From NCBI RefSeq assembly GCF_013391105.1, contig NZ_CP058335.1, positions 310,001-374,000 of the forward strand: a stretch of DNA of 64,000 bases. The letters are read 5' to 3'. Position 1 is the first letter of the stretch. Every line of letters begins with the position of its first letter. The DNA comes from Natronomonas salina. Its GTDB lineage: Archaea; Halobacteriota; Halobacteria; Halobacteriales; Haloarculaceae. The notes under the pieces were generated by a model, which did not search any database, had not been told where the DNA came from, and saw only the letters and a program-made list of their open reading frames with translations. The position numbers and the translations under genes are program-made. Shown one piece after another: positions 8,460 through 11,613 of the stretch.

Positions 8460-8669
8460 GTGACCGACTACACGACGGTTTCCATCCCGAAGGAGTTGGC
8501 CGACAGAGTCGAGGAGACCATCGAGGGGACGAGCTTCTCGTCGACGAGCGACCTCGTCAGGTTCCTGCTCCGCAGCATCGTCATCCAGCACCAGCAGCGG
8601 GGCGAGCTGACCGAGGCAGAGTTCGACGAGATAACCGACCAGCTCCAGGACCTCGGCTACCTGGAGTGA
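8460..8669 (+). CDS. CopG/Arc-type ribbon-helix-helix regulator
   Basis: 69 residues starting at GTG 8460. The first ten residues TDYTTVSIPKELADRVEE form the DNA-contacting beta strand and helix A of a MetJ/Arc fold, followed by TSDLVRFLLRSIV as helix B and an acidic tail ending QDLGYLE. Proteins of this kind dimerise and insert a two-stranded sheet into the DNA major groove. The gene is very conserved among haloarchaea as I recall it. Targets are unknown. It is divergent from the DUF5789-like gene and tail-to-tail with the unknown gene at 8683. Confidence 0.82.
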   Translation: MTDYTTVSIPKELADRVEETIEGTSFSSTSDLVRFLLRSIVIQHQQRGELTEAEFDEITDQLQDLGYLE

Positions 8670-8682
8670 GCGCGCCGGGAGG

Positions 8683-9156
8683 CTACGAGGGGTCCTCGAG
8701 GCTCCCGTGCGGCGGCTCGGCGTCGACCGTCTCGAAGGGGAGTTCCTCGCCGGAGCGGTCGAAGGCCGCGACGCTGTCGTCGTCGTACGGCGGGATGGCG
8801 ACGAAGACGACCTCGTGGAGGTCGTCGGCCTTGGTCAGCGCCAGGTTCCCGCCCGGGTGGGAGACGAACCGCCCCGCGGCACCCGGCGTCGAGAGGTCCA
8901 TCCCGAAGACGGCGGTGAGCGACTGGCCGGTCTCGGGGAGGTACATGTCGGTGAAGACGGACGCATCTGCGGGGAGATCGGCGTCCAGTTCGTCGGCGGG
9001 CATCACGTCCAGCGCGATCGTGACCGACTCCGGATCGCGGTCGGCGGCGACGTCCAGTAGCGCCGTCAACAGCCCGCTCGTGATGTAGACCACGTACCGG
9101 TTAGGAGGACGCCAGGGATAATAGCTACCATATTTTTCCACTCTTTCTCGAGGCAT
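8683..9156 (-). CDS. Uncharacterised protein beside CHAT/peptide locus
   Basis: 157 residues, no membrane segment and no recognisable domain. It has an aromatic, basic N-terminus (ERVEKYGSYYPWRPPNRYVV) and then an alternating strand/helix pattern (VTIALDVMP, LHEVVFVAIPP). It starts 70 bases from the divergent membrane-peptide gene at 9227, sharing an AT-rich region with it. The position suggests a role in the same locus as the CHAT protease, but there is no direct support for that. Coding potential is supported by strong G/C third positions. Confidence 0.6.
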   Translation of the reverse strand: MPRERVEKYGSYYPWRPPNRYVVYITSGLLTALLDVAADRDPESVTIALDVMPADELDADLPADASVFTDMYLPETGQSLTAVFGMDLSTPGAAGRFVSHPGGNLALTKADDLHEVVFVAIPPYDDDSVAAFDRSGEELPFETVDAEPPHGSLEDPS

Positions 9157-9226
9157 TCAACAATAGATACCGAGGAATGAATTGGGGAATAAATATAATC
9201 CTTACTGGGCAGTTTTGGAGGACGTA
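9157..9226. promoter_or_regulatory. AT-rich divergent promoter
   Basis: This stretch is far richer in A+T than its surroundings. On the plus strand taaatataa at about 9190-9198 lies 29-37 bases before the ATG at 9227, a good TATA box. On the minus strand several A/T words could serve the gene starting at 9156. AT-rich regulatory DNA of this sort is common where haloarchaea have acquired genes. Confidence 0.5.
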
Positions 9227-9379
9227 ATGACGACTGATCGATCCCAGTCGACCTCAGGTACCGTCAGCGAATTCCTCGCAGCCCACCCGCGGATGACCGG
9301 CGTCCTGTTCGCGATGTTCCTGGCACTGGCCCAGGCCGGACAGGTGGCCGCCGGCGGTGGAACGTACCACGGCCCGTAA
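9227..9379 (+). CDS. Small single-pass membrane peptide (DUF7503-like)
   Basis: 50 residues: a polar N-terminus (residues 1-22, with EFLAAHPRMTG at the boundary), one hydrophobic segment (about 24-40, GVLFAMFLALAQAG) and a short glycine-rich end GGGTYHGP. I recall a class of tiny haloarchaeal peptides with the same layout (xxEFLxxHPRMxGVLF..LLxLAQAG and a terminal GP) that is grouped as DUF7503. The hydrophobic stretch followed by VAAGGG could also be a signal peptide cleaved to release a very short peptide. It runs towards the CHAT-protease gene, whose end is 60 bases away. Confidence 0.68.
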   Translation: MTTDRSQSTSGTVSEFLAAHPRMTGVLFAMFLALAQAGQVAAGGGTYHGP

Positions 9380-9438
9380 GGCTGCATCACGTTGGCGGTA
9401 CCGAGGGCGTCGTCGATCGTTCTCGGACCGCAGATTCC

Positions 9439-11561
9439 TTACTGCCGGGGAGTGTCGGACGGGTCGACCCTGTCCGTCCAGGTGAACTCGCCGTCGAACC
9501 GGACCGGGAAGACGGACGTCTCGAAGTACTCCCGGAGCGTCGCCCGGGAGACCTCGAACGTCGGCAGGGTCCCGGGACAGAGGAACACCTCGTCGACCCC
9601 CGGGACCGCCGGGCGGAACTGCGAGCCCATCCCGCCCTGGTTCGTCGGGAACGTCGTGACATCGAGTTCGTAGTCGTCCCCGTCCCCGCCGGTCGAGACG
9701 TCCGCCAGGAGCGCGCTGCCGGTCTCCGCCTGCGCGATGTCGGCGTTCCCGTCGCCGATGACGAGGTACTGCGACCCCACGACGCTCCGGTCCCGTGCGA
9801 CGTTGAGCGCCGACCGGAGCGGGAAGCCGTAGTCGAGGAGTTCCGCGAGGGTCTTCCCGATCCGGATCGCGCCGCTGTTGGTGATCTCCTCGACCGTGAC
9901 GACCCCCGAGATCGCCCCCCGCTCGATGAGCCGCCGGCCCTGCCGGTAGGACCGACAGGCGTTCAGGAAGAAGATGTCGATACCGACGGTCGAGAGCGAC
10001 GCCGCGTCCAGCATCCCGTCGCGGCACCGGAACCCGTCGTCGTCGACGTGGCCGATGTAGTGGAGGAAGTCGACGTCCGATTCGAGGACGAGCGACAGCT
10101 GGGCCGCCGTGAGGTCCTCGTAGAACGTCACGTCGACGGGGAACTCCTCGCGGGTGCCGTAGGCGGCTTCGACGCCGTCGCGCTCGTCGAGCATCGAGTC
10201 GTCGTTGCAGACGACCACGATCTCGATCTCCTCCTCCCGCGCCATTCGGTCGAGCCGGTTCCGGTAGGCCGCCGGGAACGCCTTGCTGGCGCCGATCGGC
10301 GTCCCGCGCCCGACCCAGGCCTGTTCGAGGGAGTCGTCCGACCCGATCTGAACGTAGTGATCCGACGCGGCTTCCGCGAGTGTGGCCGACTCTGGTTCCA
10401 CCTGCAGCGAGTCGGTCGTCGACACGGCCACCGGATCGATCGACGCACCGTCCACGCCTGTCTCGGAGTCCTTCCGGGTCCGGACCACCGCGAGATCGGC
10501 CACGAGGAACGGGAGCGCCTCGAGGCTGGCGGCGGTCGGTTCGACGTGGGCGGTCAGCTTCCAGGTGGGGAGGTACTCGGCGATCGCGTCGTAGGGGACA
10601 TCCGCGTAGGCACGGAGCCGTTCGGCTCCCGGCCGGCCGTAGAGGTCGTCCAGGTCGACGTCGAGCGACCCCTCCAACTCGCGTCGCTCGTGGAGCGGGA
10701 TGGTCTGCGCGGGCCGGCCGTGCGCACCAGACAGTCGAGCAGGAAGGTCTTCTTCAGCGTCCGTTCTACGGCCGCCTCGAACCCCTGGTCGCTCTCGAGG
10801 CCGGCGGACTCGCCGTCGACGACGAGACGGGGTTCCGGACCTTCCTCCACGCGTGCCCCCAGGTAGTAGGCCAGCGGCGAGACCACCATGATCTCGCGGA
10901 GCGACGGCGGAACTTCGATCGCGACGTCCGGCGACGGCGGTTCGATACCGTCGGGAACGGCCAGTTCGTCGGCCAGTTCCAGTGCGGGTGGATGCCCGCG
11001 GAGCGTCGGGTACGACCGCTCGCTCCGCGCGGTCTTCAGCGCGCTCCCGAACGACGACACCGCTGCCATCACGTCGGTCGGGTCGTCGGTGGTCCGGACC
11101 GTCGTCGCCGGCCGTTCGTGGTACGACCGGGCGCCGATGCTGACCGTGCGAGACTCGGCCAGGGATAGCTCGACGTCCGTGACGGACGTCTCCACCCGCA
11201 TCGGTCCGGTCACGTCGACGTACAGCTTCACTGGGCCGGAGAGCTCCAGTTCGAAACGTCCGGGCCCGAACGTCCGCTCGTCGAAGTGTCCGACCTCGAC
11301 GGTCGGCTCCGCTCCGTGCACGAACGTTCGCGAGAACCCGCCGAACGCGAGCCGGTCGGTCTCGACCTGCACGGACGAATCGACCGGGTACCGGAACGGG
11401 TTCCCCGGCAGCGGGGCGGGCGAGACTGTCCCGCCGGTGGCTATCTCGCAGTGCCGTCGCTCGATCCGGTCGTCGATCTTGAGGCCCGCCCCGTCGTCAA
11501 GCGGGCGGATGGAGAGCCTGTCGACGCCCCGTCGCCCGCCACCGGTCCCGTCGACACCCAT
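9439..11561 (-). pseudogene. CHAT-domain cysteine protease, frameshifted
   Basis: The coding signal runs from ATG 11561 to about 10727 in one frame and from about 10722 to the stop at 9439 in another. Joined, they give about 705 residues: a beta-rich N-terminal half of unknown type, then a CHAT (caspase/separase-like) domain. In the second part, counted from Met at 10677, the catalytic pair is His210 in FLHYIGH and Cys241 in FLNACRS, with the usual GVVTVEEITNSG and ALNVAR segments. At the junction the first frame reads DCLVRT and the second HGRPAQTIPLHERRE, which would be continuous if one or four bases were restored in the cgcacgg stretch (10719-10725). Either a recent disruption, a sequencing error or recoding. 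The catalytic half is intact. Confidence 0.75.
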
Positions 11562-11613
11562 CGGGTCCCTCAATTCGCCTCACGGCGAAAAGCGTATCGC
11601 CAGCGGTACGATT

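Follow-up and report, generated by a model that had tools for sequence, protein, structure and literature searches.

Why should a gene for a caspase-like protease lie tail-to-tail with a gene for a membrane peptide of only 50 residues? This arrangement is found in a 64,000-nucleotide stretch of the Natronomonas salina genome (hereafter the window), and a preliminary description of the locus had proposed that the peptide might be a substrate or an effector of the protease. We examined the two genes together with their homologues and neighbourhoods in haloarchaeal genomes, asking whether they belong together and which part of the peptide the protease might recognise.

The two convergent genes in the window

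The peptide gene occupies positions 9,227–9,379 on the plus strand (coding region 9,227–9,376, stop codon 9,377–9,379) and encodes 50 amino acids with one hydrophobic stretch and the C-terminus GGGTYHGP. It is a genuine gene, as the preliminary description had assumed: the open reading frame matches the Pfam family DUF7503 (PF24335) with an E-value of 2.5e-17 and 62.6 bits, above the curated cut-off of 27, and its layout aligns in 78 homologues, running from a hydrophilic N-terminus through an HPRM anchor and a hydrophobic helix of ~20 residues to a short tail with Gly-Pro directly before the stop codon. The tail end TYHGP (9,362–9,376, plus strand) has its Gly-Pro C-terminus in common with other CHAT partners. 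Pfam lists DUF7503 as an entry without function, and in the literature searched we found no mention of DUF7503 or of haloarchaeal CHAT, nor of the pairing with CHAT, the Gly-Pro end or the repeat form described below, in line with the earlier remark that the role of the peptide is undescribed.

A TATA-like box, TAAATATAAT, lies at 9,190–9,199 (plus strand), that is, at -37 to -28 relative to the peptide gene. It coincides with the AT-rich peak of the family at -38 to -29, and the most AT-rich 8-mer is located at -36 in 40 of the 78 homologous peptide genes. The 70-base AT-rich stretch 5' of the peptide is a trait of the family and not peculiar to this locus. The peptide had been said to share this stretch as a promoter with the adjacent gene; the AT-rich promoter is borne out, but the shared stretch is longer, ~130 bp, if the neighbour, as homology makes probable, starts at the conserved position 9,093. 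With this start, that neighbour (8,683–9,156, minus strand), previously taken for a gene of 157 residues, would encode 136 aa. It has no Pfam match; its AlphaFold model (pLDDT 77) resembles the MPN/JAB1 fold (Foldseek 1oi0, E-value 1.2e-7), the first His of the JAMM motif is replaced (V-S-H-P), and the product may, judging from the model, be a non-catalytic MPN protein. We rejected this MPN-fold gene as part of the unit because it is near-universal (186 of 194 genomes) and usually located elsewhere in the genome. The ribbon-helix-helix regulator noted next door was confirmed (8,460–8,669, plus strand; Pfam RHH_1, E-value 3.7e-4) and likewise placed outside the pair, as such a gene occurs within 3 kb of only 8 of 81 CHAT loci (9 loci by clustering), a case of local synteny only.

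On its other side, the peptide gene is separated from the stop codon of the protease gene by 59 bases (9,380–9,438). The tail-to-tail arrangement is therefore real, with a stop-to-stop distance one base shorter than the 60 originally given; in relatives this distance is often 2–11 bp, and in some the genes overlap. The protease gene, on the minus strand, consists of two overlapping frames in the window, while homologues have one ORF of ~700 aa. Its C-terminal part, comprising the CHAT domain and a C-terminal beta domain, spans 9,439–10,677 (412 aa counted from a TTG codon, upstream of which the frame is still open), and its N-terminal part spans 10,554–11,573 in the other frame, the frameshift being placed between about 10,680 and 10,740. 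Both halves are still 44–49% identical to the corresponding parts of intact homologues, suggesting that the break is either recent or a sequencing error; the frameshift may represent a sequencing error, recent decay or a programmed shift. The source genome (3.75 Mb) contains a second DUF7503–CHAT pair and a third CHAT gene facing a TbsP-type regulator (L136, L141), and because these other copies are intact, function may rest on them.

Despite the split frame, the catalytic pair reported in the preliminary description is complete. The codons of the catalytic His in HYIGH (10,048–10,050, minus strand) and the catalytic Cys in LNACRS (9,955–9,957, minus strand) are each invariant in all 81 aligned homologues, window included, as in the proteases of CHAT clan CD. 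The Pfam CHAT profile (PF12770) matched 9 of 55 members (best E-value 7.6e-5), the window fragments and most members giving no match, and a profile search of the PDB by sequence with the CHAT family matched no solved structure. The AlphaFold model of the homologue L091 (pLDDT 86.7, pTM 0.88) gave Foldseek matches to separase (7.9e-8), SAVED-CHAT (4.9e-7) and Csx29 (2.3e-4) as well as to gingipain, with a probability of 1.00 for separase, SAVED-CHAT and gingipain. Based on this predicted caspase-like fold and the Foldseek matches, we class the protein as a divergent, predicted cysteine peptidase of the CHAT/caspase fold whose catalytic pair is intact. It has the caspase fold and the His/Cys pair in common with the clan CD members Csx29/TPR-CHAT and SAVED-CHAT (Foldseek 8tl0, 8d9g). 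The haloarchaeal CHATs had neither a recognisable TPR nor a recognisable SAVED region, and no TPR family was reported for any A1 member.

Pairing of DUF7503 and CHAT across Halobacteria

CHAT relatives were found in 179 of the 194 sampled Halobacteria genomes; in the records inspected, most of them bear the annotation hypothetical. The full-length family is nearly limited to Halobacteria: in a 393-genome sample of the phylum, it occurred outside them in four genomes of one family. These distant relatives (L157–L160 in G201, G210, G219 and G228) are full-length, with E-values of about 1e-67 to 1e-70, and a pattern search with the catalytic motif had missed them. Copies on plasmids occur in Halorussus, Haladaptatus and others, and two genomes of genus g56 (G124 and G174; L161, L162, L165–L169) contain 9–12 CHAT-family matches each. 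A second CHAT subfamily (L198–L217) is syntenic, lying between a glyA/folD-like side and the gene of the transcription factor TbsP in 17 of 20 loci; a Gly-Pro peptide is present at one of these 20 loci and absent from 19.

The peptide type recurs in haloarchaea, as the preliminary description had stated, with DUF7503 in 164 of the 194 sampled genomes and in 54 of 65 genera. The check proposed in the preliminary description, namely whether CHAT genes lie within 3 kb of peptide homologues more often than by chance, turned out strongly positive. A CHAT gene is located within 1.5 kb of 131 of the 132 checkable DUF7503 genes in the 194 haloarchaeal genomes, in most cases at less than 100 bp and nearly always tail-to-tail. 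Among the matches listed, 99 of 151 DUF7503 genes had a listed CHAT gene within 3 kb, and 98 of those 99 were convergent. Apparent non-pairs among these matches were checked against the locus sequence or the coordinates of the full-length search, yielding 32 further pairs and one unpaired gene, with 19 of the 151 left out of the count. Chance pairing would be well under a few per cent by our own estimate, given one to ~12 CHAT genes per 2–5 Mb. The peptide and CHAT are an obligate pair across Halobacteria. A single DUF7503 gene, L129 (G160:C9:101300-111400), was confirmed to lack a neighbouring CHAT gene; the CHAT gene of its genome is located on that contig at a distance of 33 kb, which would fit a pair split by an inversion.

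The recurring neighbours identified around the pair include DUF7504, HalX regulators, aglB, TbsP, RHH genes and others. DUF7504 is a putative RecA-like family, judging by its similarity to Elongator Iki1, and at 22 of 78 loci it is encoded immediately upstream of CHAT in the same orientation; HalX response regulators occur within 3 kb in 15 loci, and aglB nearby in 13, including the window. Such surroundings are more suggestive of signal transduction, or of a housekeeping role at long-standing chromosomal sites, than of defence. PADLOC gave no match for the peptide, CHAT or DUF7504 at an E-value of 0.01, and no copy of the pair was found in phage records or viral contigs. Together with the near-universal spread, these results lend no support to the defence role raised in the preliminary description.

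The Gly-Pro tail and the repeat proteins of genus g47

A C-terminal Gly-Pro was found in 72 of the 78 peptides retrieved by a whole-sequence HMM. We take this as the unbiased figure, because a codon count of 75:0 for Gly-Pro came from a set chosen to end in Gly-Pro. A small ORF ending in Gly-Pro-stop faces 100 of 123 CHAT genes within 350 bp, compared with 31 of 1620 random windows (1.9%), and at least 3 of the 23 CHAT negatives also face such an ORF, overlapping the CHAT stop (L016, L108, L139). Genus g56 has as many as 12 CHAT genes, and their partners are so diverged that they can no longer be recognised; nevertheless, the majority still end in Gly-Pro, and many of the CHAT genes have a diverged membrane peptide of their own with this end. 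One lineage (L064, L070 and L073 from genera g28 and g64) has kept a CHAT-facing membrane peptide that ends in TID instead, and the peptide of a Haladaptatus plasmid copy ends in TIS.

All synonymous forms of the Gly and Pro codons are used at the C-terminus, indicating that the constraint acts on the protein and not on the DNA; the codon variety rules out a DNA-level motif or terminator. The same variety speaks against a link through DNA or RNA alone, in which the two convergent transcripts would overlap and regulate one another while the proteins would not interact. The short, sometimes overlapping stop-to-stop distances would suit such regulation, but gaps of 60–230 bp separate the genes in the window and in many relatives, the two genes of L101 have the same orientation and are separated by 1.4 kb, and the Gly-Pro end is kept in the protein, not in the codon. 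We regard this idea as very improbable.

Codon differences between close pairs distinguish the parts of the peptide. The helix has 354 synonymous against 132 non-synonymous differences, a sign of purifying selection, suggesting that the helix also matters outside g47 and is no mere filler. The residues between the helix and Gly-Pro have 176 synonymous and 174 non-synonymous differences, and such a loose mid-tail is unlike a strict cleavage motif. Covariation between the tail and CHAT was above that of a coarse within-clade shuffle, with shared ancestry still in the signal. A mutual-information map of tail versus CHAT gave a hint at the C-terminal beta domain; phylogeny was not removed from this map, so we do not rely on it.

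Genus g47 offers a different form of the partner. Opposite CHAT, each of its six sampled species has a gene for a soluble protein built from copies of a 13-mer (e.g. TADGNGSGISGPM); the copy numbers are 4, 5, 7, 8, 10 and 14, and the proteins have neither a hydrophobic helix nor an export signal. Such repeat proteins were found in 6 of 391 genomes of the class, every one from g47. In L193, the amino acid sequence is the same in 13 units despite silent variation at 11 of 12 codon positions, showing that selection keeps the amino acids of each unit. The CHATs of the six g47 species group in a single clade (support 1.0) that falls within the CHATs of membrane peptides, and the sister of this clade (0.963) consists of four CHATs whose peptides end in AAGN(N/H)xGI(S/Y)GP. 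Because the g47 clade is nested in this way and the 13-mer corresponds to the tail at the C-terminus of the membrane peptides in the sister clade, the unit is the old tail, multiplied. These comparisons show that the repeat protein derives from the peptide tail and that purifying selection acts on the unit.

The repeat form weighs against the possibility that the peptide is a membrane effector, in which case the helix would act like a pore or toxin and would be released or blocked when CHAT cuts DUF7503, resulting in gasdermin-like cell death or abortive infection. Bacterial CHAT/caspase-like proteases do activate adjacent membrane effectors (PMC9612521), and the helix of DUF7503 is conserved. 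However, genus g47 lacks the helix entirely, which makes a membrane pore unlikely as the conserved function, and the pair is near-universal rather than patchy and without a match in PADLOC, phage records and viral contigs. We consider a membrane effector decidedly improbable, and we rejected a pore or toxin as the function common to all partners because of g47. The original suggestion of a substrate or effector thus survives in part: the relation between protease and partner is upheld by the 131/132 pairing and by tail-only repeats that still lie 2 bp from CHAT, but the pore or membrane effector is not.

Proposed function and known protease systems

Nearly all partners share the Gly-Pro tail and not the helix. 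The tail is thus their constant feature and, on the simplest interpretation, probably also what CHAT recognises. We propose a two-gene haloarchaeal unit that combines a CHAT cysteine protease of the caspase fold, located in the cytosol, with a dedicated partner, usually a membrane-anchored peptide of 42–50 residues with a free C-terminal tail ending in Gly-Pro. CHAT would recognise the tail either as a substrate that it cuts or as a docking ligand by which the protease is held or switched at the membrane, with the helix serving as a replaceable anchor; g47 would have dispensed with this anchor and expanded the tail into a soluble chain with 4–14 units. Cutting or docking of the tail would then be the signalling step. 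To this unit with a tail-recognised partner, be it substrate or docking ligand, we assign a probability of roughly 0.55. The putative cleavage of the peptide by CHAT is more tentative, at slightly under an even chance. Flanking charges in many of the membrane peptides favour a tail outside the cell, where a cytosolic protease could hardly reach it, whereas the g47 repeat protein looks cytosolic.

The tail could also bind CHAT uncut, as an anchor that retains the protease at the membrane or an inhibitor that keeps it inactive, with proteolysis aimed at another protein. Multivalent repeats would fit a scaffold for protease clustering (induced proximity), and the free carboxylate of Gly-Pro could make it resemble the product of a cleavage; on the other hand, this possibility overlaps with the proposed unit, which includes docking as one branch. 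Taken separately, it is possible but rather unlikely.

A further possibility is that the peptide is a signal. RRNPP-type signalling peptides combine a short precursor, a hydrophobic segment and a C-terminal peptide with a TPR receptor, and the yeast alpha-factor is made from a multi-copy pheromone precursor. By analogy, the helix would be a signal sequence, a released 8–10-residue peptide ending in Gly-Pro would act as pheromone or internal messenger, CHAT would be the processing protease or the receptor, and the g47 chain would be a multi-copy precursor. Size and layout fit (~45 aa, a hydrophobic segment and small residues AAA/VAA before the 8–10-residue tail), as do the variable mid-tail with a fixed end and the repeat precursors of 4–14 units. 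However, the repeat proteins have no export signal, and no transporter or RRNPP-type receptor was found among the common neighbours examined; where RRNPP systems place a TPR-type receptor beside the propeptide, the adjacent gene here encodes a caspase-fold protease. Moreover, pheromones usually diverge, while the Gly-Pro end is common to whole families; the likeness to multi-copy precursors comes from the repeat form of one genus. We consider a peptide signal of this kind unlikely.

The proposed tail-recognising unit resembles two known systems in being a dedicated protease–client pair, though its partner differs in kind. For Csx29, the dedicated substrate is the neighbouring Csx30, bound through its C-terminal domain (PMC10028731); Csx30 is a protein of 565 aa, unlike the 42–50-aa peptide or repeat chain facing the haloarchaeal CHAT. 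In bacterial gasdermin systems, the gene of a caspase-like protease adjoins a membrane-active partner (PMC9612521), but this pore-forming partner is of gasdermin size, in contrast to repeats without a helix or to peptides of 42–50 aa, which fall far short of the size of a gasdermin pore domain.

Haloarchaea were reported to possess strong caspase-like activity for which no gene was known, including a caspase-specific activity in Haloferax volcanii described by Bidle and co-workers, and caspase-like activity was also reported in archaea outside Halobacteria (PMC3615174). DUF7503 is present in H. volcanii, which served as a control, and CHAT together with the peptide occurs in other Haloferax species. 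We put forward the CHAT family as a candidate for the H. volcanii activity, which is only a proposal; unlike the spread of the family, caspase-like activity reaches archaea in which CHAT is scarcely found. In its widest form, the unit might represent an archaeal protease–peptide signalling system, near-universal in Halobacteria, in which CHAT would process or read a Gly-Pro-ending peptide supplied one at a time by a membrane precursor or, in the case of g47, by a polyprotein of 4–14 copies, and which may explain the orphan caspase-like activity; we hold this wider picture to be doubtful. For most of its genes, a caspase-fold family present in 179 of 194 haloarchaeal genomes gains a candidate partner, and the repeat version is a natural experiment pointing to the part that would be recognised. 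Target, motif and phenotype thereby become directly testable in Haloferax.
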